A stretch of 64,000 nt of DNA from Bacteroidota bacterium (GTDB lineage: Bacteria > Bacteroidota > Bacteroidia > Bacteroidales > Tenuifilaceae), in NCBI GenBank assembly GCA_029560875.1, contig JAKQKB010000076.1:1-64000 (forward strand), read 5' to 3'. The position numbers and the translations under genes were made by a program. Below are positions 16,578 to 58,300 of this stretch, piece by piece. The notes under the pieces were generated by a model. That model made no database searches and was not told the origin of the DNA. It saw nothing but the letters and a program-made list of their open reading frames with translations. How positions within the stretch are numbered: position 1 is the stretch's first letter; each line of letters starts with the position of its first letter.

Positions 16578-16748
16578 CTTTCAAATGATAAGTTAAACCA
16601 GAAAAAAAGTCATCTATTTAGTTGTTCTTCAACATTGCTAAACAACATGTTTTGGTGTAAATGGAAAGGCAGAAATTGTATCAACGTAAATTAATGAAAA
16701 AGTTGGAGAGATGCAAGAGTAACTTCTGGAAGAGTTATGTTTTTTGAG

Positions 16749-16860
16749 ATGGAGCTTTGGAGTGATGGAGTATTTGAGTAATGGATGTTTGTAGGCATAT
16801 TCAATACTCCAACACTCCATTCATCCAATAATTAATTTCTTAATTAACTTATTGCCTCAT
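16749..16860. repeat. Dispersed GGAGT-type intergenic repeat, copy 1
   Basis: In the 329-base gap between the GH3 gene and mce, the sequence holds short direct units (GGAGTGATGGAGTATTTGAG) followed by their inverse (ATACTCCAACACTCCATTC). A CTCATT-rich tail (ATTGCCTCATTGTCTCATTC) then runs to the stop of the GH3 gene. The same core and tail recur at 20027-20130, 23559-23740 and 38650-38745. The rest of the gap (16578-16748) shows no other feature. Confidence 0.65.
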
Positions 16861-16864
16861 TGTC

Positions 16865-19800
16865 TCATTCTCCAATCGCTCTATAGAACAAATCGTGAAT
16901 TTGTGTGCGGATATTCATGTTGGCCAGTTTAGTGTTGTTGGCATCGGGGTAAACACGGTTCGATAGGAAAACATAAATAAGTCCATTTTCTGGGTCAGCC
17001 CAAACCACAGTACCAGTGAATCCTGTATGTCCGAAGCTAAGCGGCGAAGCCAATTCGCCAGCAGGCGAAGGTTGTCCTTTGGGTGATGGTTTATCGAACC
17101 CTAAAGCTCTGCGGTTGCCATTATTACCATTAGGCGTATTTATGAATGTATTAACTGTTTCTTGGCTAAAGAATCTTTCTCCTCCATAAGTTCCTCCGTT
17201 TAGGAACATCTGCATAAGTTTGGCCATATCGTTGGCGTTGGAAAAAACACCTGCGTGACCTGCAACTCCACCCATCATGGCAGCGGCAGGGTCGTGTACA
17301 TCGCCCCAAATTAGCTGTTTGCGGAATGTTAAGTCGTACTCGGTTGGGACAATTCTTTCTTTATCGAATTTACGGTAGGGCTGAAATTGGGTGTAGTTCA
17401 TTCCAATTTTCTTGTAGAAATAGTTTTCGGAAAGTTCATCGAGCCCCTTATTCTCAACATTCTCGATAATTCGTTGTAGATAAAGAAAACCAAGGTCGCT
17501 ATACTTATATTTTCCAACTTCTTGAAGCGAACTTCTGTTTATACTATTGAAAATGGTGTCTTTTATTCCTTCGCAGGCGAACAGATTCTCTGTACAGCGA
17601 AATGGGAATTTATCGGTCTTTTTCAGACTATAAAAAGTTGGGTTTGCGCCCACGTACTTGTGCAGGAATGTGCGTTCCGAAACCTTAAAAGGATATTCGG
17701 CACTAATTGTTTCCATTGAAACTGGTGTGTTGGGCACAAGTGTTGAAAGTGTTTTAAGGTAGAATGGAATCCAGGGTTGAAGTCCCGATTGATGGAGTAA
17801 AATATCGCCAACTTTAATTGATGCTTTATCCTTATTGTTAATTAGATTGATGAAATTGCCAATTGGGGCGTTAAGTGTAATTCTTTGATTGTCGAATAAT
17901 CGCATAACGAGCGGAACGGTTGTCGATATTTTTGTGATAGATGCAATGTCGTAGAGCATTCGCACATCCACATTTTCCTGAGAGTCGTACGTGGGTTTTC
18001 CAAAACTTTTGTGGTAAAATACTACACCGTTTTTGGCGGCTAAAATTTGCATTCCGGGTGTTACTCCTTGCTGAATAGCATCGAGGGCAATAGAGTCAAC
18101 TTTTTGTAAGAATTTGGAATCAACCCCAATTTCCTCCGGAAGCGAGTACGAAAGCCTTGCTTTACCCTGAGTTTCATTACCTAGTCCTGCAACATACGAG
18201 TTAAATATGGAAACAGGAAGTTTACCCTTTGCGCCAATTCCTCCAAAAATAAGCTGCGCTGCTAAGTTTTGGCTATCGGTGGAGTTATCGTAAGTTATTA
18301 CTATGGAAGCAAAAGAATATGGGTTGAAGAATTTTGAAAGTGAGTAAGGAGACCCGAAGTAGGTTAAAACCACTTTTTTCCGAAATGCTAAGTCGAAAAG
18401 GAAATTTGCTGCTTGGTTGGTTATTCCGTAGTTTTTGCTGAACCGAATATCGGCCGCATGGTATCCTGCAATAACCAGATTGTATGCCTCAAGTGCGTTA
18501 AGCAACGAATCGTATTCTGCAACAGATGATTCTGGATTTATGCTGAACGTTGTTAATGAAGTGTAGAGTTCCAATTGTTCGCGGAAGGCGTCTCCTTTAT
18601 TGCTTCCAATTTCGATATATGCAATTTTAAGGGTGTCCAAGCCTTTAATTGGCAAAATATCTTTATTGGAAACAACGGTTAATGAGTTGGTGATTATCTT
18701 TCTGCGTAGAACTTTTGATGTTTCCCTATTTAAATCCTCGTAAAGATTTGTTAATGCTATAGGCTTGTACTTGTTTAGACCAACATAGTATTTTGCCTCC
18801 AAGATTTTTCGGCATTTTTCGTTGATTTCGGCTTCGGTTATTTCGCCGCTTTTCACAAGCGCCTCAATTTTATCAATAGATTCCTTTACTTTGGAGGGGA
18901 ATAGTAGTATATCGTTACCAGCTTTAAGTGCTAAAACATTGATATCGACAGGGGTGTAATAATCGGCAATGCCTTTCATATTAAGGGCATCGGTAAAAAT
19001 TAGCCCCTTAAATCCAAGGTCGTTTATCAAACTATTTTTAATGATATTGGCGGAAATACTTGCAGGTTTGAGTGAATCTGGCTCTAAACTGGGAACTCTA
19101 AGATGCGCAACCATAATACTATTAATTCCCCCATTTATTAATTGCTTGAAAGGATACTTCTCAATGGAGTCCAATCTTTCGATGCTATGAGAAACAGTGG
19201 GCAATGCTAAGTGAGAATCTTCGTATGTATCGCCATGTCCAGGAAAATGCTTAGCGCAGGCAATAATGCCGTTATTCTGTAAACCTGCCATATAGGCCAA
19301 TCCAAACTTAACAACTCTTTCCCTGTTCTCGCCAAAGGAGCGAGTGTTAATAACAGGGTTTTGCGGATTACTATTAATATCCACAACTGGTGCAAAGTTG
19401 ATATGAACTCCAAGGCGTTTTAGCTGACGGGCAATATCGCTTCCCATTTCGTAAACCAACAACGAGTCCGATGTGGCGCCAAGCATCATTTGGCGAGGGT
19501 AGGAGAATGTGCTATCCAAACGCATTCCTGGACCCCACTCTGCATCCATCGATATTATCAAGGGAACTTTTGCAAGCGACTGGTAATAGTTGGTTTGATT
19601 GGCTTGCCTTACAGGTCCTCCCTGAAAGAATATTAATCCGCCAATTTTTTGATTTCTTACTAAATCGGCAATTTCTTGAATATGCTTATCGTCGCGGTTG
19701 GAGTAGGCCGCAACCATAAAAAGTTGCCCAATACGTTCACGTAGCGTAAGTTTCTTCATTACAGAATCCACCCAGTTAGCCTGCGTAAGAGTATCCTGTT

Positions 19801-19885
19801 TTGCCGTAACAAAGTTCCTTTTGCTAGCAAATAAAGTATTAGTAATCAACACAAATACTAGTAAAAACGCGCTAAAACTCCTCAT
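16865..19885 (-). CDS. GH3 beta-N-acetylhexosaminidase fused to a beta-lactamase-type serine hydrolase
   Basis: This is an exported two-enzyme protein, 1006 residues from ATG 19885. After the signal peptide (MRSFSAFLLVFVL to FASKR), a GH3 domain shows the NagZ-like signature KHFPGHGD (about 212-219) and catalytic-Asp motif FTDALNMKG (Asp299). A GH3 C-terminal domain comes next (about 395-560). A class C beta-lactamase/penicillin-binding fold follows (about 590-1000) with ASITK (Ser-x-x-Lys), YSDLG in the Tyr-x-Asn place and GHTGFTG. It probably trims GlcNAc-anhydroMurNAc or peptidoglycan fragments in the periplasm. The frame is open upstream to 19939, but a -7 box lies in that stretch. Confidence 0.88.
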   Translation of the reverse strand: MRSFSAFLLVFVLITNTLFASKRNFVTAKQDTLTQANWVDSVMKKLTLRERIGQLFMVAAYSNRDDKHIQEIADLVRNQKIGGLIFFQGGPVRQANQTNYYQSLAKVPLIISMDAEWGPGMRLDSTFSYPRQMMLGATSDSLLVYEMGSDIARQLKRLGVHINFAPVVDINSNPQNPVINTRSFGENRERVVKFGLAYMAGLQNNGIIACAKHFPGHGDTYEDSHLALPTVSHSIERLDSIEKYPFKQLINGGINSIMVAHLRVPSLEPDSLKPASISANIIKNSLINDLGFKGLIFTDALNMKGIADYYTPVDINVLALKAGNDILLFPSKVKESIDKIEALVKSGEITEAEINEKCRKILEAKYYVGLNKYKPIALTNLYEDLNRETSKVLRRKIITNSLTVVSNKDILPIKGLDTLKIAYIEIGSNKGDAFREQLELYTSLTTFSINPESSVAEYDSLLNALEAYNLVIAGYHAADIRFSKNYGITNQAANFLFDLAFRKKVVLTYFGSPYSLSKFFNPYSFASIVITYDNSTDSQNLAAQLIFGGIGAKGKLPVSIFNSYVAGLGNETQGKARLSYSLPEEIGVDSKFLQKVDSIALDAIQQGVTPGMQILAAKNGVVFYHKSFGKPTYDSQENVDVRMLYDIASITKISTTVPLVMRLFDNQRITLNAPIGNFINLINNKDKASIKVGDILLHQSGLQPWIPFYLKTLSTLVPNTPVSMETISAEYPFKVSERTFLHKYVGANPTFYSLKKTDKFPFRCTENLFACEGIKDTIFNSINRSSLQEVGKYKYSDLGFLYLQRIIENVENKGLDELSENYFYKKIGMNYTQFQPYRKFDKERIVPTEYDLTFRKQLIWGDVHDPAAAMMGGVAGHAGVFSNANDMAKLMQMFLNGGTYGGERFFSQETVNTFINTPNGNNGNRRALGFDKPSPKGQPSPAGELASPLSFGHTGFTGTVVWADPENGLIYVFLSNRVYPDANNTKLANMNIRTQIHDLFYRAIGE

Positions 19886-19914
19886 AAACTTAAATTTCAA
19901 TAAATATTGGTTAA

Positions 19915-19922
19915 CAAAAATA
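19915..19922 (-). promoter_or_regulatory. -7 box of GH3/beta-lactamase gene
   Basis: TATTTTTG on the minus strand, 30 bases upstream of ATG 19885, fits TAnnTTTG and supports that start. Confidence 0.35.
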
Positions 19923-20026
19923 ATTCCGAAATATTTCATAACCTATGATTTTTGAGGGTTTTAACCAACAGAATGTTGACAAACATCAAAAAAAGAGGAG
20001 TTTTTCAGGAGACTGTTTTTTGATAT

Positions 20027-20130
20027 AGAACGCAGATGACACAGATTTGACCGTTTTACATAGTTTGCAGAACTGTTTGGAGCGTAGGAGTAATGGAGTA
20101 TCACTCCAATCATCCATTGCTCCAATTGCC
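20027..20130 (+). repeat. Dispersed composite repeat, copy 2 (upstream of tricorn gene)
   Basis: The copy has a left module (AGAACGCAGATGACACAGAT, then TTTACATAGTTTGCAGAACTG) and TGGAGCGTAG, followed by the core GGAGTAATGGAGTATCACTC and CAATCATCCATTGCTCCAA. Almost the same order and wording occurs at 23559-23690 in the same orientation, so the tricorn gene lies between direct repeats. Confidence 0.7.
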
Positions 20131-20216
20131 TTTTCGTTAAACTTTTTCGCCCTTTATGCATCAAAAAAAGGTTAACTTTAGTCACTTCATATATTTTCTA
20201 ACCAACATTTATCAAT

Positions 20217-23200
20217 ATGAGAAAAATAACCCTTTTATTTTTTACAGCTTGCTGTTTTTGGATGGCAAGCGTTAATGCTCAGGAGGCAAGGCTGATGCGC
20301 TTCCCTGCAATATCCGGGAATCAGGTTGTGTTTACCTATGCCGGCGACCTTTATACCGTTTCTTTACAGGGTGGTGTGGCTCGTAAACTTACTAATCATG
20401 TAGGTTACGAGATGTTTGCAAAATTCTCGCCCGATGGCAAAACTATTGCTTTTACTGGTCAGTATGATGGAAATACTGAGGTTTTCTCTATTCCATCCGA
20501 AGGCGGTATACCTAAACGTCTTACACATACAGCTACTCTTAATCGCGATGATGTATCGGACCGTATGGGACCAAACAATATTGTGATGACCTGGAGCCCC
20601 GATGGCAAAAGCATAATTTACCGTTCGCGCAAGCAAACATTCAACGATTTTGTTGGTGCACTTTTCAAGGTTTCTGTTGACGGTGGAATGTCCGAGGAGG
20701 TTCCTCTTTCGGGTGGAGGTTTTTGCTCATTCTCTGCCGATGGCAAAAAGTTAGCTTTTAACAGGGTTTTTCGTGAATTTCGTACATGGAAATACTACAA
20801 GGGTGGTATGGCCGACGATGTTTACATTTTCGATTTCGATTCCAAGGAGGTTAAAAATATCACCAACAATATAGCACAGGATTTATTCCCTATGTGGATT
20901 GGCGATGAAATTTTCTTTGCATCGGATAGGGACAGGACAATGAACCTATTCTCCTACAATATTAAGACAGGTACAACTCAAAAAGTAACTAACTTTACTG
21001 AGTATGATATTAAGTTCCCATCTCACTCTGGCAACTCTATAGTATTTGAGAATGGAGGATACTTATACCGTTTCGATGCTACTTCAAAAACATCAACAAA
21101 AATACCTGTTACAATTTTCGACGAGTTTGCGTATTCACGTCCAGAGTATAAGGATGCAAGCAAGAATATTTTTGCAGCAAACATATCGCCAAACGGCGAA
21201 AGGGTTGTGTTCTCTGCGCGTGGCGATGTATTTACAGTTCCCGCCGAAAAGGGTATTACCCGTAATTTGACTCAAAGTTCCGATGCTCACGACAGAGATG
21301 CCAAATGGTCACCCGATGGTAAGTATATAGCCTATATTTCCGATAAATCAGGCGAATACGAGATTTATATTCAAAATCAGGATGGAAGTACGGGAGCAAT
21401 TCAAATAACAAATGGTATTAATAATTATATTTTCGATTTTGAATGGTCGCCTGATAGTAAGAAACTAATGTTTAACGATAGGTTAGGACGACTTCAATAC
21501 ATCGATATTGATACTAGAAAATTAACCTTGGTTGATAAGAATGAGTATGGGCAGATATTTAGTTACAATTGGTCGCCCGATAGCAAATGGATTACTTACA
21601 CTTCCCAAGATGTTAACAGATTTGGAATAATCTACATTTACAATGTTGAAACTTCAGTAAAAAAGGCTGTTACCGACAATTGGTACACATCTTCGCAGGC
21701 AAATTTCTCCAACGATGGGAAATACTTAGTTTTTGTATCCGACAGGGATTTCAACCCAATATATAGTCAAACTGAGTGGAACCATGCTTACAGAGGGATG
21801 AGCAAAATTTATATGGTATTACTTTCAAAAGATACGTCCTCCCCATTTGCATTAGAGAATAACGAGGTTGCAATTAGCCAAAAAACGGAAGAGATAAAGA
21901 AAGATGATTCAAAAAAAGCAGACAAACCTAAAGAAGATACAAAGAAGGAGGTTTCGTCGGTGGTAGTTAAAATTGATTTCGATGATATCATTTCAAGAAT
22001 TATAGCCTTACCAATTGAGGTGGCAAACTATGGAAATCTTTACTGTATTGATGGAAAGGTTTACTATAACTATTTTAGTTTTAATGGTCGTAGGGGTGGA
22101 GCAGCCAAAATGTACGATTTAAAAAATAAATCAGAAGTTGATTTGGGTGAGTCAATAGGCTTTTCAATTTCATCGAATGGTAAAAAAATGCTTGTTTCCA
22201 AAAATGATGACTATTGCGTTATTGATCTTCCATCCGGAAAAATCAATATGGAAAAAATGGTTGACTTAAGTAGTATGAAGGTTTGGGTAGACTATAGTAA
22301 GGAGTGGAAGCAGATTTTTGATGAAAGTTGGCGACAAATGCGCGATTTCTTCTACGTTGAGAATATGCATGGTGTTAATTGGAAAGCAATGCACGATAAG
22401 TATGCTGCGCTTCTACCATATGTTAATCATCGTAACGATTTAACCTATATTATTGGTGAAATGATTGGCGAGTTGAGTGTTGGTCATGCTTATGTGAATA
22501 GTGGCGAGAAACCAGAACCAGATAGAATTAAAGTTGGTTTATTGGGGGCAAAAATCAGCAAACATGCTAGCGGTTATTTTAAAGTTGATAGAATTATTGA
22601 GGGTAAAAACTGGGATATGTCTACTCGCTCACCGTTACAGGATGTAGGTGTGAATGTTAAAGCAGGCGACTTTATTTTAGCAGTAGATGGTCAAAATCTA
22701 CAGAATCTTAGCGATATATACTCTACCTTGGTTGGCAAAGCCAATAAGACTGTTGAGTTGGTTGTAAATAGTAAGCCCGATATGGCAGGAAGCCGCAAGG
22801 TACTTGTAACTCCAATTGCCGATGAGGCTAGTCTTTACTATTACGATTGGGTTCAAAAGAATATCCAGAAAGTGACAGAGGCTACCAATGGCGAGGTTGG
22901 GTATATTCATATCCCCGATATGGGCGTTGAGGGTTTGAACGAGTTTGTAAAATATTACTATCCTCAGTTAACCAAAAAGGGATTGATTATTGACGACCGT
23001 GGTAATGGTGGTGGTAACGTATCTCCAATGATACTGGAGCGATTAAATAGAGAAGTATACCGTCAAACTATGCGACGTGGAAGTGCTTATGCATCGCCAA
23101 TTCCAACTCAAACGCATTATGGGCCTAAAGTTCTTCTTTTGGACCGTTACTCAGCATCGGATGGCGATTTATTCCCATACGGATTTAAGCGTTTGGGAAT

Positions 23201-23498
23201 TGGAACCACCATTGGAACTCGCTCGTGGGGTGGAGTTGTGGGTATTTCGGGCTCATTGCCATTTGTAGATGGTGGCGATCTTCGCAAACCCGAATTTGCA
23301 AGTTTCAGCAGCGAAACCAGCGATTGGATTATTGAAGGCTATGGTGTAGATCCCGATATTTACCTTGATAACGACCCTTACAAGGAGTATATTGGCATTG
23401 ATGATCAATTGAATAAGGCTATTGAGGTGATAAAAGAACAATTGAAGGAATACAAACCACTTCCAGCAATACCTCAGGCTCCAGATAAATCGAAATAA
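20217..23498 (+). CDS. Tricorn-like protease, exported
   Basis: This is a large serine protease that degrades peptides; in this phylum it is usually periplasmic. The 1093 residues begin with a signal peptide (to ASVNAQ). PD40/WD40-like propeller repeats follow (about 30-330, FSPDGKTIAFT) and then a second set (about 330-540, WSPDGKYIAYISDKSGEYE). A charged low-complexity linker (about 565-595, Lys/Asp/Glu) leads to a tricorn C1 domain. A PDZ domain comes next (about 770-860), then the S41-like catalytic core with DDRGNGGGN and YSASDGD (978-984, containing the nucleophile Ser), plus an upstream VGHAYVNSG His. A terminator follows. All elements of the family are present. Confidence 0.92.
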   Translation: MRKITLLFFTACCFWMASVNAQEARLMRFPAISGNQVVFTYAGDLYTVSLQGGVARKLTNHVGYEMFAKFSPDGKTIAFTGQYDGNTEVFSIPSEGGIPKRLTHTATLNRDDVSDRMGPNNIVMTWSPDGKSIIYRSRKQTFNDFVGALFKVSVDGGMSEEVPLSGGGFCSFSADGKKLAFNRVFREFRTWKYYKGGMADDVYIFDFDSKEVKNITNNIAQDLFPMWIGDEIFFASDRDRTMNLFSYNIKTGTTQKVTNFTEYDIKFPSHSGNSIVFENGGYLYRFDATSKTSTKIPVTIFDEFAYSRPEYKDASKNIFAANISPNGERVVFSARGDVFTVPAEKGITRNLTQSSDAHDRDAKWSPDGKYIAYISDKSGEYEIYIQNQDGSTGAIQITNGINNYIFDFEWSPDSKKLMFNDRLGRLQYIDIDTRKLTLVDKNEYGQIFSYNWSPDSKWITYTSQDVNRFGIIYIYNVETSVKKAVTDNWYTSSQANFSNDGKYLVFVSDRDFNPIYSQTEWNHAYRGMSKIYMVLLSKDTSSPFALENNEVAISQKTEEIKKDDSKKADKPKEDTKKEVSSVVVKIDFDDIISRIIALPIEVANYGNLYCIDGKVYYNYFSFNGRRGGAAKMYDLKNKSEVDLGESIGFSISSNGKKMLVSKNDDYCVIDLPSGKINMEKMVDLSSMKVWVDYSKEWKQIFDESWRQMRDFFYVENMHGVNWKAMHDKYAALLPYVNHRNDLTYIIGEMIGELSVGHAYVNSGEKPEPDRIKVGLLGAKISKHASGYFKVDRIIEGKNWDMSTRSPLQDVGVNVKAGDFILAVDGQNLQNLSDIYSTLVGKANKTVELVVNSKPDMAGSRKVLVTPIADEASLYYYDWVQKNIQKVTEATNGEVGYIHIPDMGVEGLNEFVKYYYPQLTKKGLIIDDRGNGGGNVSPMILERLNREVYRQTMRRGSAYASPIPTQTHYGPKVLLLDRYSASDGDLFPYGFKRLGIGTTIGTRSWGGVVGISGSLPFVDGGDLRKPEFASFSSETSDWIIEGYGVDPDIYLDNDPYKEYIGIDDQLNKAIEVIKEQLKEYKPLPAIPQAPDKSK

Positions 23499-23522
23499 CG
23501 GAATATTGAAGTTTGAAATAAG

Positions 23523-23554
23523 AAGTGTCCTCTGTTTGGGGGCACTTTTTGTTT
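23523..23554 (+). terminator. Terminator after tricorn gene
   Basis: AAGTGTCC (23523-23530) pairs with GGGCACTT (23540-23547), with one G-T pair, and is followed by TTTGTTTT. It is 25 bases past the stop codon. Confidence 0.65.
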
Positions 23555-23558
23555 TGAT

Positions 23559-23740
23559 GGAACACAGATAACACAAATTTGACAGATTTACACAGCTTGC
23601 AGAATTGTATGGAGCGTAGTATTAATGGATTGTTGGAGTAATGGAGTATCGCTCCAATCATCCATCACTCCAATACTCTTAATAACTTATTCTCTTATTC
23701 TCTTATTCTCTCATTACCTCACTGTCCAATTGCCCAATTA
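23559..23740 (+). repeat. Dispersed composite repeat, copy 3 (downstream of tricorn gene)
   Basis: The left module (GGAACACAGATAACACAAAT, then GATTTACACAGCTTGCAGAATTG) is followed by ATGGAGCGTAG and the core GGAGTAATGGAGTATCGCTC with CAATCATCCATCACTCCAA. A tail built of TTATTCTC and CTCATT units ends in GTCCAATTGCCCAATTA. It fills most of the 326-base gap before the sigma factor gene; nothing else was seen there. Confidence 0.7.
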
Positions 23741-23824
23741 TTAGGATTCCACCACTTTTTTTCAGAAATTTACAGGGTCAATGCAGCAAATTTGTTTTCG
23801 AAAGAGTCTATAAAATAGAAAGCA

Positions 23825-24400
23825 ATGAAAAAACCTGATCGGGAGATGAATATTCATTCGGAGCTTATTGAGCTATGCCGGCGTGGCGACAGCAAAGCCC
23901 AGTTCGAGTTATATAACTTATACTCAAGGGCGATGTACAATGTAAGCTGCCGAATTTTACCCGATAGGATGGAGGCTGAAGATGCCATGCAAGAAGCGTT
24001 CTTTAAAGCATTTGATAAACTTCACACTTTTCGCAACGAGGTTGCATTTGGTGCTTGGTTAAAACGGATTGTTGTTAATACCTGCATCGATTACCTAAAG
24101 AAAAAGAAGTTGCAATTAACTTCAATTGACGATGTGAAAGGTGTTGCGGATGTTCAGGATGGGACTGATGATTTTGTGCCAGATTCTGTTGAGGATATTA
24201 AGGTTGCGATGACTCAACTCCCCGAGGGATACCGCATAGTGCTAAACCTTCATTTGGTTGAAGGTTATGAGTACGAAGAAATTGCAGAGATGCTCGGAAT
24301 TGCGCAGTCGAGTGTTCGATCGCAGTTTACAAGAGCAAGGCAAAAGTTAATAGAGTTACTAAAGCAAAGCAATAAAACTTTCAATTATGGAAAGGTTTAA
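23825..24400 (+). CDS. ECF-type RNA polymerase sigma factor
   Basis: This is a sigma70-family group 4 factor that would direct transcription of a stress or envelope regulon. The 191 residues have region 2 (about 25-95, DRMEAEDAMQEAFFKAFDKL and FGAWLKRIVVNTCIDYL) and region 4 (about 125-180, LPEGYRIVLNLHLVEGYEYE and EIAEMLGIAQSSVRSQFTRA). It heads a three-gene unit; its end overlaps the next gene by 14 bases, so the pair is coupled. The start at 23825 has no strong ribosome site; an ATG nine codons later (23849) is also possible. Confidence 0.93.
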   Translation: MKKPDREMNIHSELIELCRRGDSKAQFELYNLYSRAMYNVSCRILPDRMEAEDAMQEAFFKAFDKLHTFRNEVAFGAWLKRIVVNTCIDYLKKKKLQLTSIDDVKGVADVQDGTDDFVPDSVEDIKVAMTQLPEGYRIVLNLHLVEGYEYEEIAEMLGIAQSSVRSQFTRARQKLIELLKQSNKTFNYGKV

Positions 24401-26105: not shown

Positions 26106-27208
26106 TTAATGTTGTATGTACCTTTAATTAGAATTTTGCCTTTTAGTTGTTCGTTTAATATTTCCGAAAAGTTATTGTTTTTTCTTCCAGATTCGATATC
26201 TACCTTTCTAAAATAATAATTATTATTCTCTTGTTTATCTAGAACAAGAACAGCGTTACCACTTTCGGTTTTAATTATTGCATCGCTTGGAAGAGCTTTT
26301 ACAGTATCTATACTTGTTATAATTTCGGACTCTACAAATTCATAGGCTATCGGATTTATTGCTATTTTGTCCGTTATTGCCGCATAGCACTCAATTGATT
26401 TTGTTTCGTTATCAATAGAAACACCAATAGAATTTATTGTAGCGAGTTGGTAATTCACCGTGTTGTTCGATTTAAAACGAACAGTTTGCCCTTTTTTCAG
26501 GTCTGCAATTTCATTAGCAAATACTGATAGTTTAACTTGAAGCATATCCGGATTGATAATTTCCAGAAGTTCAACCTGTGAGTCAATATAACTCCCAATT
26601 GATGCATTGAAGTTGGAGATGTTGCCCTTAATTGGCGATTTTAATTGGTATGACGAGTAAAACTCCCCATTCTCAATTTTTGACGTGCTTAATCCTAGTG
26701 ACTCTATTTTCAGTTTCAATCCAGAATATTGAGCCATTGAGGCTTTAAATTCTGTTTCTGCAACAATAAAATCTTTCTCTGCAGTAACCTTTTCATTGTA
26801 TAGAGACTTAACTCGTTCATATTCACTTTTTATTCGTTTGTAATTTGCCGATGCCTCTGCAAATTCCTTTTGAATTTCAATTATCTCATTGCCAGTTATC
26901 TCAATTAGATGCTGATTCTTATCAACAGATTCTCCGTTAGAGCAATTGATACTTTTGATTATACCGCTTATAGGAGCATTAAGTTTTGCAATGCCATTGG
27001 GGAGGGGAACAATAGTTCCATTACACTTCACGATGTTTTCAAAAAGCATTGTTTCAATTTCGCCAAATTGCATGGAATCTGTTTCGAATTGCTGATTTGT
27101 AATTTCTATAAGATCCGATTCTTGTTCTGCAACTTCTTGTTTATTGCCACAGGAAAACATTATAAGTATTACAGTGGCTAGATATAGGAGGTGTTTAATA
27201 GTTTTCAT
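26099..27208 (-). CDS. RND efflux periplasmic adaptor (CzcB/CusB-like), lipoprotein
   Basis: This membrane-fusion subunit bridges the RND pump and the outer-membrane channel. The 369 residues start with a lipoprotein signal peptide ending LIMFSCGN (lipid-modified Cys about 20). A beta-barrel/lipoyl half (LNAPISGIIKSI), a helical hairpin (about 110-170) and the second lipoyl half (YQLKSPIKGNIS) follow, then C-terminal beta domains. It is downstream of the fused RND-TolC gene after a 142-base gap and likely belongs to the same heavy-metal efflux unit. The metal is not indicated. Confidence 0.88.
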   Translation of the reverse strand: MKTIKHLLYLATVILIMFSCGNKQEVAEQESDLIEITNQQFETDSMQFGEIETMLFENIVKCNGTIVPLPNGIAKLNAPISGIIKSINCSNGESVDKNQHLIEITGNEIIEIQKEFAEASANYKRIKSEYERVKSLYNEKVTAEKDFIVAETEFKASMAQYSGLKLKIESLGLSTSKIENGEFYSSYQLKSPIKGNISNFNASIGSYIDSQVELLEIINPDMLQVKLSVFANEIADLKKGQTVRFKSNNTVNYQLATINSIGVSIDNETKSIECYAAITDKIAINPIAYEFVESEIITSIDTVKALPSDAIIKTESGNAVLVLDKQENNNYYFRKVDIESGRKNNNFSEILNEQLKGKILIKGTYNINI

Positions 27209-27350
27209 GTGTTTAGAATTTGTTAAGTTTCAGAATGTCAGTGGTGTTTGTTTTTGATTTTATGTTTGATAATGATTGCGCACACATGGAATACCTATAT
27301 TTTAATAATTGCGTTTGGAGTAAATTATTGCATGGGTATTTCATACGGTT

Positions 27351-30300
27351 CTATTTTGAAATATAGTTAAGTTCAAGTGTTACGTTGGTATAGTTGATCA
27401 GATTGTTTAAATAATCTAATCTTATTTGGAGTGCGGTTTCGGTGCTTGTGGCAAATTTCAGAAAATCAATTTCGCCATTTTCAAAGCTAAGCCTTGCGGT
27501 TCTAGTAATTTCATTGTAAAGGTTTCCACCAATTTCGTTGTAGTAGTCTATTAGTTCTTTTAGCTTTAAGTGTGAACTTAATAACTCTTTTTGTTTCACT
27601 TTTAGTAGTTCAATTTCGAACTCAGCAAGGTTTTTGGTAGCATTCATTGCAAATTTCGACGCTTTTATCTTTGCTTTTTGTGCATTGAAAAATATTGGGA
27701 TTGAAATGCCTGCCTCAAATCCATGATATCTCTGTGCATTCTCATAAGAATTAGTTCCCAGAAAGTAGTTAAATGAAATATTGGGCATAAGTTTGTTCTT
27801 TTCAACGCTGATGTTTGCAATGCTTAGCTCTTCCTGATTTTTCAGCCATAAAAAGTATGACGATGATTCAATTGCCTTTTCGGCAAGGGACAATACAGTA
27901 ATTTCTGGTGAAACAACAAACGAACTATCGTAACCCATTAAGGTTTTAAGCTTTGTCAGGGAGTTTTCCATGTTGTATTTTATTTCGTTGAGCTGATTTT
28001 TTACCTGTTGCTGCTTGGCCTTAATGGTTAGTAAATCGAGATTGGTTATATCGCCCCTACTATTTCGGATAGTTGCTCCTTTTAGAATGTTGAGGTAAAG
28101 GCTATCAATATTTCCGTATATTTTCAATTTTTCGCTTATAACTTGTACTTCAACATAGTTTTGCGATACTTGCTTGATTAAGCTCTCTGTTCTGATTTTC
28201 AACTCGGTTTCGGCAATGCTGTACTCAACTCTTTTGGCTTTCAGCTCTGCGCTGTAAAGTGTGGGAAAGTTTATGCTCTGCGAAACACCCCAAACTTTTA
28301 GCGGGTAGCCATTTTCGGCAATATTATTTTGGTCGTATCCATAGGTAAAGGTTGTTTTATCCAGTGCAATAGCCGAAGGAATCAATGCTTTCTGCTCATC
28401 AACTTTAAGCGTGTAGGCTTTTATTTCTTTATTATTCTGTAATGCAATATTTACAGCATCATTCATTTTTAATTCTTTACTCTGAGCGAAAATACTAAAC
28501 GATGGCAGTATAAGCAACAGAATAATAACGCTTTCCTTTGCTCTTATTAACCGTAAGGGGAATAGCTTTATTCCAATAACATTGTAAAATATATGGAACA
28601 TCAAAGGCAGCGCTATCATTGTAAGCATTGTTGATGTAAATAACCCTCCAATTACCACGGTAGCCAGCGGTCGTTGTACCTCGGCACCAGCACCTGTAGA
28701 TATTGCCATAGGCAAAAAGCCCATTGCCGCGGCACCTGCTGTTAGCATAACAGGTCGTAGCCTATCTTTTGTGCCTTGAATAATTAGTTCGCGCATACTC
28801 ATTGCTCCATTGTGTTTAAGTTCCTTGAGATGTTCAATTAGCACAATTCCGTTTAGTACCGCAATTCCAAATAGGGCAATAAATCCTACGCCTGCCGATA
28901 CACTGAACGGCATGCCCCGTAGCCAGAGGAGTAGCACCCCGCCAACGGTAGCCAAAGGAATTGCTGTAAAAATCATTATGGCATCCTTAAACGACTGGAA
29001 CGCAAAGTGCAGGAATATGAATATAAGCAAAAGCGCAACCGGTACGGCAACAAGTAATCGGTTAGTAGCATTTTGCAAATTCTCAAACTGTCCGCCGTAG
29101 GCAATGTAGGTGCCCGGTTTTAATGTGATGTTCTTATCAACTGTGGCTTGGATATCCTTTACTACCGACTGTAAATCCCTGTTACGCACATTTATGCTTA
29201 CTACCACCCGCCGATGAGTGTTCTCCCTCGATATTTTTGCCGGGCCCGCCGCGTACTGTATATTGGCCAGCTCCGATAGTGGAATCTGACTGCCGTTAGG
29301 GATAGGAACTCTAAGATGCTTAATGTCTTCAATGTTCGTTCTGTTTTGTTGGTTGAACCTTACAACCAGGTCGAAACGTTTCTCCCCTTCAAAAACTACT
29401 CCGGTTGCTACTCCACCAAATGCTGCGGCTAGGTAACTGTTGAGCGTTTTGATATCAACTCCATAGTGTGCAATTTTTGCCCGATTGTAATCAATTTTAA
29501 TTTGAGGAAGTCCGGCAGTTTTTTCCAGAATAACATCACTAGCTCCAGGAATTCCCTCAATTAATTCTTTAATTTCAATTGCTTTTTTGTCGATATACTC
29601 CAAATCATCCCCAAAAATCTTAATGGCAATATCGGAACGAACACCGGTGATTAACTCGTTAAAGCGCATCTCTATAGGCTGTGTAAATTCGTATTCAATC
29701 CCGGGGATAGCCGAAAGTGCTTCTTTGAATTTATCTGCCAATTCCTCTTTGGTTTTTGCGCTAGTCCATGTTTTACGTGGTTTTAGTTTGATAATCATGT
29801 CAATTTCCTCCATCGACATTGGGTCGGTGGGAACCTCGGCTGCACCAATTCGGCTAACTATTTTATCAACCTCAGGGAAGTTCTTTATCAGAATTTGCTC
29901 CATTTTGGTTGTGGTTTCAATGGTTTTTGTTAGCGAAGTGCCCGTTTTTAGTACGGGTTGAATAACAAAGTCGCCTTCATCTAACGTAGGAACAAATTCT
30001 CCTCCAATTCTTGTAAAGAGGAATGCTGTGAAAAGCAGCGAAACCATGGCTGCACCAAGTACAATTTTTTTATGTGAGCAAGACCAGATAATTACAGGTG
30101 AGTAGGACTTGTGGGCAAGATTCATGAACCAATCTGAAATGTTTTTCTTATTCGATTTGGAGGGCTTCAGAAATAGCGATGATGCAACAGGTAACCATGT
30201 TAAACCCATTATCATTGCTCCAATAATTGCAAAGCAGAACGATAAAGCCATGGGCTTAAACATCTTTCCCTCAACTCCAGTTAACGAGAGGATTGGAATA

Positions 30301-31691
30301 AACACTATAAGGATGATTATTTGCCCGAATATGGCAGATTTCATCATTTTTGATGCTCCATCAAACGATATTACATCCATTATGTTCAAACGCTCATCGC
30401 CACTTGTTGCCTCTATTTCACTCTTTTTTACCGATATTTTTAATGCAATAAATTCAACAATAATAACAGCTCCATCAATTATAATCCCAAAATCGAGTGC
30501 TCCAAGGCTCATCAGGTTAGCATCTATTCCAAAAATGTACATCATCGAAATGGTGAAGAGCAGCGCAAGCGGAATCATTGATGTTATTACAAGTGCGGAG
30601 CGGATATTCCCAAGGAGAAGAATTACGGTGAACATTACAATTATTGCACCCAGTATAAGGTTCTCCACAACGGTAAATGTTGTTTTGGCAACCAGCTCGC
30701 TTCTGTCGACAATAGGATTTATAAAAACACCTTCAGGTAGGTTTTCCTGAATTTCTGCTACACGGTTTTTTACTTCAGCAATAACCTCCTTGGAGTTTGC
30801 ATTTTTGAGCATCATTACCTGCCCAAGTATTGTTTCGCCTTTCCCGTTTGCTGTAATAGCACCGTACCTATTGGCGTGTCCAAACTTAACAGTTGCAATA
30901 TTTTTGACGAGAATAGGTGTTCCGTTTGTGTTTTTAACAACAATATTCTCAATATCCTCTACAGATTTTACCTGTCCATCGCCGCGAATAAAGTAACTTT
31001 GGTTTGTTTTCTCGATATAGGAGCCACCCGATATGCTGTTGTTTGCTTCTAGTGCGTCGAATACCTCCATTAGAGTTACATTCATAGCAACCAGTTGCGA
31101 AGGTGTAATCGCTACCTCGTATTGTTTTAAGTAACCTCCCCAGCTATTAATCTCCACTACACCATTAATTCCAGATAATCTTCGTTTTATAACCCAATCC
31201 TGAATGGTTCGTAAATCGGAGGCGGAGTATTTGTTTTCGTATCCTTCTTTAGTGTCTAGTGTATACTGGTAAATCTCCCCAAGTCCTGTTGTAATTGGCC
31301 CCATTTCTGGTTCTCCAAAACCCTCCGGAATTTTTGCCGTAGCACTTTTTATTTTCTCGGAGATAAGTTGCCTTGGAAGGTACGTTCCTAAATCATCCTC
31401 AAAAACTATTGTCACTAAGGATATTCCAAATTTTGATACAGAACGGATTTCCTTTACCCCAGGCAAATTAGCCATTTCCATTTCAACCGGAGCAGTAATG
31501 TACTGCTCAATTTCCTGAGTCGACAAATTCCCCGACGTTGTTATAACCTGTACTTGATTATTGGTAATATCAGGGACGGCACCTACCGATATTTTAAAAA
31601 CTGCGTAAAATCCAAATGAGGCTATTGTTAGTGTAAACAGAATAACTATGAGTTTATTCTTAATGCTGAAGTCAATTATTTTTTCAAGCAT
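27351..31691 (-). CDS. Heavy-metal RND pump (CzcA/CusA) fused to a TolC-like outer-membrane domain
   Basis: This is a proton-driven metal exporter. The 1446 residues are much longer than the usual 1030-1050. Residues 1 to about 1030 form a full HME-RND protein: 12 membrane spans, two periplasmic loops, and LDFGIIIDGAVIIVEF in span 4 with Asp400, Asp406 and Glu413, the hallmark of metal-type pumps. From about 1040 a second hydrophobic segment (SVIILLLILPSFSIFAQ) ends like a signal peptide. It is followed by an OEP/TolC coiled-coil domain (about 1060-1446, NDAVNIALQNNKEI). The frame is open throughout. The fused form joins inner- and outer-membrane parts in one chain. Confidence 0.9.
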   Translation of the reverse strand: MLEKIIDFSIKNKLIVILFTLTIASFGFYAVFKISVGAVPDITNNQVQVITTSGNLSTQEIEQYITAPVEMEMANLPGVKEIRSVSKFGISLVTIVFEDDLGTYLPRQLISEKIKSATAKIPEGFGEPEMGPITTGLGEIYQYTLDTKEGYENKYSASDLRTIQDWVIKRRLSGINGVVEINSWGGYLKQYEVAITPSQLVAMNVTLMEVFDALEANNSISGGSYIEKTNQSYFIRGDGQVKSVEDIENIVVKNTNGTPILVKNIATVKFGHANRYGAITANGKGETILGQVMMLKNANSKEVIAEVKNRVAEIQENLPEGVFINPIVDRSELVAKTTFTVVENLILGAIIVMFTVILLLGNIRSALVITSMIPLALLFTISMMYIFGIDANLMSLGALDFGIIIDGAVIIVEFIALKISVKKSEIEATSGDERLNIMDVISFDGASKMMKSAIFGQIIILIVFIPILSLTGVEGKMFKPMALSFCFAIIGAMIMGLTWLPVASSLFLKPSKSNKKNISDWFMNLAHKSYSPVIIWSCSHKKIVLGAAMVSLLFTAFLFTRIGGEFVPTLDEGDFVIQPVLKTGTSLTKTIETTTKMEQILIKNFPEVDKIVSRIGAAEVPTDPMSMEEIDMIIKLKPRKTWTSAKTKEELADKFKEALSAIPGIEYEFTQPIEMRFNELITGVRSDIAIKIFGDDLEYIDKKAIEIKELIEGIPGASDVILEKTAGLPQIKIDYNRAKIAHYGVDIKTLNSYLAAAFGGVATGVVFEGEKRFDLVVRFNQQNRTNIEDIKHLRVPIPNGSQIPLSELANIQYAAGPAKISRENTHRRVVVSINVRNRDLQSVVKDIQATVDKNITLKPGTYIAYGGQFENLQNATNRLLVAVPVALLLIFIFLHFAFQSFKDAIMIFTAIPLATVGGVLLLWLRGMPFSVSAGVGFIALFGIAVLNGIVLIEHLKELKHNGAMSMRELIIQGTKDRLRPVMLTAGAAAMGFLPMAISTGAGAEVQRPLATVVIGGLFTSTMLTMIALPLMFHIFYNVIGIKLFPLRLIRAKESVIILLLILPSFSIFAQSKELKMNDAVNIALQNNKEIKAYTLKVDEQKALIPSAIALDKTTFTYGYDQNNIAENGYPLKVWGVSQSINFPTLYSAELKAKRVEYSIAETELKIRTESLIKQVSQNYVEVQVISEKLKIYGNIDSLYLNILKGATIRNSRGDITNLDLLTIKAKQQQVKNQLNEIKYNMENSLTKLKTLMGYDSSFVVSPEITVLSLAEKAIESSSYFLWLKNQEELSIANISVEKNKLMPNISFNYFLGTNSYENAQRYHGFEAGISIPIFFNAQKAKIKASKFAMNATKNLAEFEIELLKVKQKELLSSHLKLKELIDYYNEIGGNLYNEITRTARLSFENGEIDFLKFATSTETALQIRLDYLNNLINYTNVTLELNYISK

Positions 31692-36056: not shown

Positions 36057-36128
36057 AATTCAATTTATTTGGATGCAAAATAAACATTTTTTTGAGATTA
36101 GAGGCCGAGTTCTGCTGTATGGCATACT

Positions 36129-36221
36129 ATCCGAGTTTTTACTCGGATTAAAGAATGTGCAGCATAGAATTGCGATGCACGGTATGCCCATTCTAGGCAT
36201 GGTACAGATTTTTTGCATCGC
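36129..36221. other. Structured intergenic sequence of unknown role
   Basis: In the 228-base gap between the aminopeptidase and a membrane protein, ATCCGAGT-TTTT-ACTCGGAT (36129-36148) is a perfect 8-bp hairpin. GCGATGCA (36172-36179) pairs with TGCATCGC (36214-36221), enclosing a smaller ATGCC/GGCAT stem. No coding potential was recognised. It could be a small RNA, a 5' leader or an inserted repeat. Confidence 0.3.
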
Positions 36222-36284
36222 AAAGGAAGTGGATGGTAAGTATCACGCGTCAGGAGGCGCTCGATAGCGTTGGGATAACGATGG

Positions 36285-38649: not shown

Positions 38650-38745
38650 CGGAGGTGGAATGTTGGAGGAATGGAGGAATGGAGAGATGGAGTAATGGAG
38701 TAATGGAGTGTTGGAGTTTTGCTCCAATCATCCAAATCTCCATCA
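38650..38745. repeat. Dispersed GGAGT-type intergenic repeat, copy 4
   Basis: Tandem AATGGAGG/AATGGAGT octamers are followed by TTGGAGTTTTGCTCCAATCA and CCAAATCTCCATCAA. The hairpin TTGGAG-TTTTG-CTCCAA matches the core of copies 2 and 3. A second short tandem array (GTCACCT units, about 38765-38792) follows. Nothing else was seen in the 229-base gap. Confidence 0.6.
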
Positions 38746-38796
38746 ATCCTTTTATGTCACTTTTTGGGTCACTTGTCACCTGTCACCTGTCACCAA

Positions 38797-40632
38797 CTAC
38801 AACCCCAAAAACACATCTTGATAAACATAGAAGAAAGCGCTTGCTTTATCGGTTGTTTTTTCGGTTTCAACTCCATTCTGCATGATGTATTGGCGGCTTA
38901 CGTGGTCGTAAATAATGGTATCGGTGGCCGATACAAAGCCGTAACCGTTGTTAAATGCATAGTACGCGAATGGTTGTGTGTGCTGGTTAAGGATGTCTTT
39001 GGAGAATACGAAACTAGAATGGTTCAAGTTTAATTGATTTAGTAGCGTTGAGGCTAAGTCAATCTGCGAGCAAACTTTATCAATCCTTGCTGGTTCGGTA
39101 TTTAATGCGCCACCTAGCCAAAGCATAGGAATGGAAAATTTATCGGTAGAGTAGTTTGTGCTTTTTCCCAAGTGTCTGTGTCCGTGGTCGGCAATAAGTA
39201 TAAAAAGTGTGTTGTTGTACCAATCGCGTTTTTTTGCGTCGGCAAAGAAGTTGCCCAGGCTGCTATCAGTGTAAAAAGCAGAACTTAAGAATTGGTTAAC
39301 CTCCTCTGTTCCTGGGTATTTTGATTTTGTAGGGATTTCGAAAGGTTCGTGGTTGCTCAGTGTAAAAAACATCTTGAAGAATGGTCCTTTGGCAGTATCG
39401 ATATCGTTTAAAAGATACTTGAAAACGTGTTCATCGTGAACGCCCCACTTGGAATTGCGGTAGTTACGTGGAAAATCATCCTGAGTAATAATTCTGCTAA
39501 ACTTTGCTGAGTATAGGTACGAACGGATATTGGCGAAATCGGGGTCGCCACCGTAGTAGAATGATGCGTTATAGCCAGCATCAACAAGTGCCCCGCTAAT
39601 GGTTGCTAGTTTTCGGGACTTTGTTGGGTATTTTATAACCGATTGTGTTGGTTGTGCAGGAAATCCTGAAACTATGGCAATAATACCCTTATCGCTGCGG
39701 TCGCCACTCGATATCATTTTGGTGAAGAATAGACCTTCGTTACTTAGCGCATTGAAGTTAGGAGTAACACCCTCTTTCCCACCAAGTGTTTCAATTAACT
39801 TAGAGCTGAAACTCTCTAACATAATCAACACAATGTTTGGTCTGTCCGTTCTAAGAACCTTAGTAGAATCGGGATTATTCTGCATTAGTTCAGCGAAAAG
39901 AGCCTGCGCTTTTTCTTTTCCAATGGAATCGGGATATCGCTTATTCATTTTACCCGATTTTGAGATGGAATACATCATATTCCAGGGGGCATTCAACGCA
40001 GCGTGATTACAGTATGTATTAGAGCTGAAATAAACCTTTCCTGGATTCATTGGAGCAATTCCCAAGCCTCCGCGTATAGGTAGAATCATAGTTCCTGCAA
40101 TAACAATAAAAATAGGAGCGTACCACCATTTTCCGTTTTCAACCCTATTTAATGTGCTAGCAATCCATTTCCTATAAGCCCAATAAAGGCCAATAATAGT
40201 GAGAATTGTAACTATCACAAAAATGATAATCATAAAGGTTTCCATTGATGCCATTGCTTCTTTGGGTGTTTTAAGGTAGAGCAGGGGAGTTGCATCAATC
40301 CGAAAGCCCCAGTTACGGTAAAGTTCAATGTCGGAAATCGATATAAGAGATATTATTGTAAGTAAAAGTATAGTTTGAAATGCAAGGTAACCCTTTAGCC
40401 ATTTTTTGTTTGCAAGGAGTAGGATTCCTATAAATATTGATGTTAGAAGTGTTATATATCCTGTTAACGATAAATCCATCCATGCACCACGTACTATAAT
40501 GTTGACGAAATCATTAAAAGTAATCTGTAGGGTTTGTTTTAACTGGTAAACCATAAATGCTAGGCGAAATAAGGCAAATGTAAGCATCCAGAAGATGGAA
40601 TATTTTAGTATAAAAAGGAGTCTGTTCTTCAT
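38797..40632 (-). CDS. LTA-synthase-family sulfatase (phosphoglycerol transferase-like)
   Basis: This is a membrane enzyme with a periplasmic alkaline-phosphatase-fold domain that may transfer phospho-alcohol groups to envelope lipids or glycans. The 611 residues have five membrane spans (about 10-190), then the catalytic domain from about 262. VLIMLESFSS supplies a metal Glu (Glu273), GDRSDKG has Ser313 where the LtaS nucleophile is Thr, and NHEPF and IADHGHRH carry metal residues. Gram-negative members have varied roles and the substrate is unknown here. It is monocistronic with a -7 box upstream. Confidence 0.85.
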   Translation of the reverse strand: MKNRLLFILKYSIFWMLTFALFRLAFMVYQLKQTLQITFNDFVNIIVRGAWMDLSLTGYITLLTSIFIGILLLANKKWLKGYLAFQTILLLTIISLISISDIELYRNWGFRIDATPLLYLKTPKEAMASMETFMIIIFVIVTILTIIGLYWAYRKWIASTLNRVENGKWWYAPIFIVIAGTMILPIRGGLGIAPMNPGKVYFSSNTYCNHAALNAPWNMMYSISKSGKMNKRYPDSIGKEKAQALFAELMQNNPDSTKVLRTDRPNIVLIMLESFSSKLIETLGGKEGVTPNFNALSNEGLFFTKMISSGDRSDKGIIAIVSGFPAQPTQSVIKYPTKSRKLATISGALVDAGYNASFYYGGDPDFANIRSYLYSAKFSRIITQDDFPRNYRNSKWGVHDEHVFKYLLNDIDTAKGPFFKMFFTLSNHEPFEIPTKSKYPGTEEVNQFLSSAFYTDSSLGNFFADAKKRDWYNNTLFILIADHGHRHLGKSTNYSTDKFSIPMLWLGGALNTEPARIDKVCSQIDLASTLLNQLNLNHSSFVFSKDILNQHTQPFAYYAFNNGYGFVSATDTIIYDHVSRQYIMQNGVETEKTTDKASAFFYVYQDVFLGL

Positions 40633-58261: not shown

Positions 58262-58300
58262 AACCGTATGGTATTAAAATGGAGTAATGGATTGATGGAG
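58262..58300. repeat. Degenerate fragment of the GGAGT-type repeat
   Basis: GGAGTAATGGATTGATGGAG (58281-58300) repeats the core wording of copies 1-4 but lacks the inverse half and the tail. It sits directly before the terminator hairpin. Confidence 0.4.

Follow-up and report, generated by a model that had tools for sequence, protein, structure and literature searches.

Dispersed intergenic hairpins of inverted TGGAGTRN octamer arrays in a Tenuifilaceae genome and recurrence of the word in distant phyla

The window analyzed here, a 64,000-nucleotide stretch (positions 1–64,000 of contig JAKQKB010000076.1, assembly GCA_029560875.1) from a Bacteroidota bacterium of the family Tenuifilaceae, contains dispersed short-unit repeats at five sites (16749, 20027, 23559, 38650 and 58262). 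A first-pass annotation had described four intergenic copies and a fragment at 58262, and all five were recovered at the same positions; each lies between long open reading frames (ORFs), as had been claimed, and some are overlapped by short mechanical ORFs. The tandem words reported there were present, with a unit that the annotation had not recognized, an octamer of the type TGGAGTRN repeating with a period of 8 (or 16) bp. The reported inverse half corresponded at four sites to the second arm of an imperfect hairpin and was missing at 58262. At these four sites, a TGGAG array is followed by a short loop (12 nt at 16749 and 5 nt at the other three) and by an inverted (CTCCANNN)n arm. The features of the five sites are as follows.

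16750–16794, plus strand: TGGAG-type arm of six octamer units with three mismatches to TGGAG (array pairing and sequence)
16807–16827, minus strand: inverted CTCCA-type arm of three units, loop 12 nt (fold z −5.07)
16851–16869, no strand assigned: ATTGCCTC octamer tail adjoining the hairpin (tandem-repeat scan)
20027–20070, plus strand: ACACAGAT-type block left of the hairpin, common to the 23559 copy (sequence and alignment)
20078–20098, plus strand: TGGAG-type arm of three units (array pairing)
20104–20124, minus strand: inverted CTCCA-type arm of three units, loop 5 nt (fold z −3.75)
23563–23610, plus strand: ACACAGAT-type block left of the hairpin (sequence and alignment)
23626–23646, plus strand: TGGAG-type arm of three units (array pairing)
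23652–23672, minus strand: inverted CTCCA-type arm of three units, loop 5 nt (fold z −4.60)
23676–23715, no strand assigned: CTTATTCT octamer tail adjoining the hairpin, octamers at 23686 (tandem-repeat scan)
38656–38716, plus strand: TGGAG-type arm of eight units, the longest in the window (tandem-repeat scan and array pairing)
38722–38742, minus strand: inverted CTCCA-type arm of three units, loop 5 nt (fold z only −1.93)
38768–38794, no strand assigned: GTCACCT heptamer array adjoining the hairpin (tandem-repeat scan)
58280–58300, plus strand: TGGAG-type array of three units without an inverted partner (sequence and array pairing)

The repeats occurred far above chance in both the window and the genome. 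With up to two mismatches, GGAGTAATGGAGT matched 17 times in the window, against a mean of 1.05 and a maximum of 4 in 100 shuffles, and across all 237 contigs of the genome (3.99 Mb) the exact 13-mer GGAGTAATGGAGT occurred 9 times and the reversed word never. A search of the whole genome for TGGAGTAATGGAGTAATGGAG with up to three mismatches gave 41 matches, against 2 for the reversed-word control. Because of the excess over shuffles in the window and over the reversed word in the genome, the chance-level frequency that would have undone the proposal of a dispersed family can be set aside. Merged by eye (less than about 200 bp apart), the TGGAGTAATGGAGTAATGGAG matches formed 22 places, with seven on C227 (99 kb) and four on C16 (18.5 kb); this regional clustering rests on the by-eye merging of the genome-wide matches. 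Tandem Repeats Finder reported periods of 8 or 16 bp at the array sites (24 in one of two rows at 38656), and the unit was therefore taken as the octamer TGGAGTAA, which varies mostly at its last bases and is written here as (TGGAGTRN)n. The earlier opinion that the repeats are not CRISPR (clustered regularly interspaced short palindromic repeats) held, since CRISPR arrays have identical repeats and unique spacers of like length, and here degenerate 8-bp units abut without spacers. An Rfam scan of the window gave 0 matches at the gathering score.

The two arms stood in a fixed order. In the window's genome (G000) and a sister species (G001), 40 array clusters were analyzed (25 and 15, respectively); arrays neighboring each other within 60 bp were arranged as TGGAG-then-CTCCA in 19 cases, in the reverse order in 0 and on the same strand in 1. 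Arrays comprised 2–11 units, with loops of 5–42 nt in G000, and unpaired arrays were also present. Since the second array is an inverted copy of the octamer, either strand is able to fold back. RNA folding of ten chosen two-arm hairpins (eight from G000 and two from G001) gave z from −1.93 to −7.66, with nine at −3.68 or below and the weakest at window site 38656; the arms were imperfect, with a paired core and a frequently unpaired linker. No avoidance of matches between arms was seen at position 8 in these two genomes; the P value for as few matches was 0.3 or more in G000 and about 0.06–0.1 in G001, as derived from figures for the upper tail only. No TGGAG pairs were found in a 400-kb sample of G000, but this is weak evidence, because the sample was hand-picked from six long contigs and misses known sites there.

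The resemblance between the copies at 20027 and 23559 extends leftward beyond the hairpin, with 88 of 104 aligned bases identical. Concerted evolution of this pair was considered and dropped: one shared base hinted at it, four sites grouped by locus, one by genome and none crossed. A CTCATT-rich tail had been assigned to the repeat at 16749 and 23559; the tails are present, but they are separate short-unit sequences adjoining the hairpins. By eye and in the window only, GTAG was seen left of two of the four hairpins (20027 and 23559) and not of the other two. The GTCACCT heptamer array at 38768–38798 also matched places in G001 and in a more distant congener (G002) at 94%, and thus represents a separate dispersed short-unit word.

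Simple long-ORF gene calls placed 22 of the 25 G000 clusters and 14 of the 15 G001 clusters between genes, and co-directional, convergent and divergent spacers all hosted clusters. The median distance to a gene 3′ end was 68 bp in G000 and 50 bp in G001, versus 156 and 105 bp to a gene start, and the side was not fixed. The ten window proteins neighboring the sites carried carboxyl transferase, glyoxalase, glycosyl hydrolase 3 plus beta-lactamase, tricorn-type protease, extracytoplasmic function (ECF) sigma factor, sulfatase, phosphofructokinase and chemotaxis receptor domains; for two of the ten, no domain passed the cut-off. A transposase domain was seen in none of them. G000 contains six matches to Y1 transposases, and no TGGAG/TGGAT pair at octamer spacing was found in the fetched surroundings of these six. 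A Y1-transposase match was lacking in 5 of 38 genomes searched, including one (G061) with 82 word matches, and across 36 genomes word and Y1 counts gave a Spearman coefficient of 0.33 (P 0.049) raw and 0.18 (P 0.30) per Mb. A link to repetitive extragenic palindromes (REPs) and their associated tyrosine transposases (RAYTs) was not supported, given the lack of an octamer pair near Y1 genes and the weak count correlation. The first-pass view that origin and role could not be assigned agrees with the lack of an Rfam match in the window, of a transposase domain in the neighboring proteins and of an octamer pair near the Y1 genes. One Y1-transposase ORF of G000 (1471–2049 in L045:626–2396) lies between repeated flanks of its own, seen as repeated translations on both sides, and this locus is unrelated to the TGGAG word. 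Two other window spacers contain dispersed sequence: in spacer 36057–36284, parts of the intergenic stretch 36131–36274 had 15 further matches, 13 of them in G002 and the other 2 in G001, with identities of 72–85%, and 27194–27346, in the spacer before the 27351–31691 ORF, had five further matches in G001 and G002 with identities of 68–85%.

Comparison within the genus revealed that the sites are stable in location over the short term. The window aligned at 82–92% identity with G001 and at 73–92% with G002 (alignments above 80 bits). A 21-mer search with up to three mismatches gave 39 matches (1 in the control) in G001 and 2 (0 in the control) in G002, and any 21-mer match was found in 12 of 60 relatives searched. 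G001 was compared at the window sites other than 58262, and arrays were present at all four (16749, 20027, 23559 and 38650), altered by whole octamers; an expanded ACTCCAAT run at its 23559 site is missing from G000. Elsewhere, G001 has one additional octamer (+8 bp) in each arm (C51 versus C456), G000 has a second, additional hairpin (C49 versus C233), and a hairpin at C227:65785 in G000 has no counterpart in the aligned G001 spacer, where the sequence beyond also differs. G002 contains no array at 16749, 20027, 23559 or 58262 and only a remnant at 38650. The comparisons with G001 and G002 thus indicate octamer-wise change at stable locations and gain or loss over longer terms.

In one other genus of the family (g4), TGGAATAA hairpins were found in four genomes (G005, G011, G016 and G019), in most cases within a larger element. 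The hairpin lay mid-element in 10 of 12 loci tested, corresponding to nine distinct elements of 199–291 bp in G005, G016 and G019, with inverted ends close to AACGTSAGTTCGAYRTAA. Outside these nine elements, exact direct duplications of 4–6 bp were present in seven and of 3 bp in one, and one had none. Matches to the element ends with at most one mismatch numbered 131 in G016, 233 in G019, 102 in G005 and 3 each in G011 and G022, and the reversed ends never matched. Judged by this anatomy, the TGGAATAA element is a miniature inverted-repeat transposable element (MITE). A search of 557,839 bases of G000 stretches for the g4 ends, with up to two mismatches allowed, gave no match. An assignment of the window copies themselves to MITEs was rejected, as they have no terminal repeats and the g4 ends are absent from the G000 stretches.

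The word extends far beyond the family. A named-genome scan for TGGAGTRNTGGAGTRNTGGAGTRNTGGAG gave at least 120 stretches, chosen by the word, the first 80 of which came from 63 assemblies; by record titles and our own grouping they represent at least 14 phyla. The first 80 included Bacteroidota, Verrucomicrobiota with Lentisphaerae and Pontiellaceae, Planctomycetota, Cyanobacteria, Desulfobacterota and other delta-proteobacterial bins, Cloacimonadota, Ignavibacteriota, Acidobacteriota, Armatimonadota, Nitrospinota, Chlamydiota, Neomarinimicrobiota, Patescibacteria and a gammaproteobacterium, and the other 40 added Clostridia, Calditrichaceae, Elusimicrobia and Corynebacterium. Nearly all listed stretches were metagenome bins. 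In 36 genomes chosen through the scan stretches, the three-unit word occurred 2–235 times per genome (with 225 triple-octamer matches in G066 and 235 in G073) and the reversed word was absent from 34; in the Robertkochia genome G076 the reversed word (8) exceeded the word (2). The distribution is patchy, since in an even draw of 395 genomes from the window's phylum only five contained the word, including the window's own genome, with 44 matches in total and 2 single control hits. Viral contigs gave 38 stretches with the three-unit word and 11 with one permuted word.

Among the 120 matches listed, a CTCCA array within 80 bp lay downstream in 39 and upstream in 1. Any hairpin was found in 25 of the 63 assemblies (80 titled loci), and the groups of these assemblies (Verrucomicrobiota with Lentisphaerae and Pontiellaceae, delta-proteobacteria/Desulfobacterota, Ignavibacteriota, Bacteroidota, Neomarinimicrobiota and one unassigned) place the inverted layout in at least five phyla; word-oriented loci of other phyla had loops of 7–51 nt. 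The search constrained partner-arm units only to resemble TGGAG, and in 126 such units position 6 was T in 102 and position 7 a purine in 118 (54 and 60 of 62, respectively, with one locus per assembly), while position 8 was mixed (A 67, T 31, C 15, G 13); the word is therefore TGGAGTRN in both arms. Arm covariation was not detected at position 7 (0.442 versus 0.481 for swapped arms). At position 8 the arms matched less often than swapped arms (0.168 versus 0.298, P 0.0004, 39 hairpins; 0.224 versus 0.311, P 0.068, for the first hairpin of each of 21 assemblies; P 0.0076 in a looser run with 25 assemblies). In the single-contig delta-proteobacterial genomes G085 and G094, the hairpins lie within longer foldback elements, and 11 of 13 had loops of 43–44 or 51–52 nt. 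In 400 kb of G085 sampled at even steps, TGGAG/TGGAA words made up 8 of 12 period-8 arrays above threshold (about six places). The first-pass annotation had recognized neither the octamer unit nor the hairpin layout, and had missed the MITE of genus g4 and the spread over many phyla.

Other words were met along the way. At a lower threshold, the 400 kb of G085 contained 45 period-7 arrays, with words such as AGATTNN, GGTGTCA and GGCATAG, and 13 period-8 arrays, and heptamer words like these also adjoin arrays in other phyla. G028, which belongs to a different family of the order, has an array of TTGAGTAA/CTGAGTAA octamers followed by an inverted TTACTCAA arm (L064:1500–1600), the same layout with a different word.

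We tentatively interpret the repeats as non-autonomous DNA hairpin elements with a recognized octamer that are reshaped by slippage, a reading we regard as possible without being convinced of it. The element would be non-coding and dispersed, consisting of a short TGGAGTRN array, a loop and an inverted array of the same word, and may have spread as a non-autonomous passenger, in some lineages inside MITE-like elements moved by a transposase in trans. The position-specific conservation suggests that the octamer is kept because a DNA- or RNA-binding factor recognizes TGGAGTRN, and the octamer-wise differences between orthologues suggest that the arms grow and shrink after insertion through octamer slippage or fold-back copying. 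The window copies would be old, settled ones without recognizable ends. Several observations weigh against this interpretation. No transposase tied to the word was found, either in the ten neighboring proteins or near the six Y1 matches; the first-pass annotation had proposed a search for an associated transposase. The window copies showed no terminal inverted repeats (their flank scores averaged 8.5 and reached at most 13.0, and mismatched flanks had a 95th percentile of 13), and the orthologous spacers of G001 and G002 contained no clean empty site with a target duplication, the G002 spacers being too diverged. At 16749, the two arms changed length independently between G000 and G001, and the presence of the word in the MITEs of one genus may be secondary. 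In 78 of the 120 listed stretches there was no second array within 80 bp, and several partnerless stretches looked at were plain perfect arrays, which slippage alone can produce. Three strain-named records without a metagenome mark were looked at: Robertkochia and Budvicia have perfect arrays without a partner arm and the Corynebacterium array lies inside a 381-codon stop-free stretch, so that outside the genus the hairpin layout rests on metagenome assemblies.

Three rival explanations and one broader reading were weighed against the hairpin-element interpretation. Plain replication slippage with fold-back template switching, in which arrays arise in spacers and expand by octamers, and the first arm serves as template for the inverted one, without any recognition or mobility, is rather unlikely. 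In its favor are the octamer-wise indels between orthologues, including the 8 bp added to both arms at C51/C456, the ACTCCAAT run confined to G001, the other short-unit words beside the arrays, the many period-7 arrays of G085 and the perfect partnerless arrays of other phyla, which in several phyla may be due to slippage alone. However, slippage does not readily account for one word common to unrelated phyla with its reverse absent from 34 of 36 genomes (chosen by the word), for the position-specific conservation of the partner arm, for an order in which CTCCA-then-TGGAG never occurs in G000 or G001, or for the near-constant loop length of the G085 and G094 elements. The conserved core with a free eighth base would suit inverted-pair binding sites of a global DNA-binding protein, as proposed for octamers of Geobacter metallireducens, whose tandem octamers in opposite-strand pairs at variable distance match the layout (PMC2700814); such binding sites are unlikely here, given that there is no promoter tie, that all spacer orientations are used with 3′ ends if anything nearer than starts, that the congener G002 is nearly without arrays and that the word was present in only 5 of 395 genomes drawn from the phylum.

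Transcribed RNA hairpins at transcript ends, acting as terminator, stabilizer or processing site, would explain the strong predicted folds and the somewhat shorter distance to gene 3′ ends, but we consider them very improbable. No terminator-like site coincided with a hairpin in 16600–23900, where such sites were as frequent as in shuffles (6 versus 6.3), and a terminator role was rejected on this ground; moreover, the window has no Rfam match, the linkers between the arms lack covariation and the gene orientation is not fixed. The hairpin-element interpretation fits somewhat better than either a regulatory site or pure slippage because of the shared word, its patchy spread, the fixed inversion, the absence of a fixed gene side and the MITE-like carriers. 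A more far-reaching reading, which we think doubtful, is that TGGAGTRN and its sister TGGAATRN are words of a small vocabulary of units 7–9 bases long, recognized or written in inverted pairs by a horizontally scattered bacterial machine, with words arising or persisting independently in many phyla; were it true, the tendency toward an eighth-base mismatch between arms would be a structural signal. Accounts of short-unit intergenic arrays have so far dealt with single genomes, each with an explanation of its own. The recurrence of one word in at least 14 phyla by record titles, with the inverted layout in at least five, turns them into a single testable question, namely what, if anything, recognizes TGGAGTRN, and genomes with more than 200 triple-octamer matches are the material for asking whether a gene is common to TGGAGTRN-rich genomes.

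Several known systems share parts of this anatomy. No paper on the TGGAGTRN word was found by sequence word or theme in a literature search that left out supplements; related literature includes a repeat of Xanthomonas and Nostoc (PMC4692102) and the many multicopy intergenic sequences of Geobacter bemidjiensis and Pelobacter carbinolicus (PMC2996986, PMC3543383). GTAG/CGTC-tagged REP palindromes are likewise short dispersed extragenic hairpins (PMC3733652), but the description compared has no tandem octamers, and no Y1-transposase tie was found for the TGGAG arrays. BrickBuilt of Porphyromonas gingivalis is a tandem array in an intergenic MITE, as in the TGGAATAA MITE of genus g4, but its unit has 23 bases and inverted octamer arms do not appear in the description compared (PMC4596501). 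The TAACTGA heptamer arrays of Beggiatoaceae, Cyanobacteria and some Bacteroidetes are also intergenic, with one word scattered over distant phyla; however, their unit has 7 bases, and in the described genome 169 sets are direct versus one indirect and most lie directly upstream of start codons (PMC4679880). In G. metallireducens, opposite-strand site pairs proposed as sites of global regulators are formed by heptamers and by tandem octamers, with 24 pairs for the word GTTGCTYN and 21 places for TCTCCGTS[Y] (PMC2700814). Its classes 1 and 2 resemble our arrays in having three to four tandem octamers, opposite-strand pairs, variable distance and tens of places, whereas the words are others, said to be unique to that genome, and the insertion sequences ISGme8/ISGme9 lie at a fixed distance from some class 1 sites. 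The arrays described here share the short tandem octamers and the opposite-strand pairing at variable distance, and have TGGAGTRN in place of the published words. Paired octamer arrays of other words were thus already known, without an explanation; what is new is the TGGAGTRN word variant.

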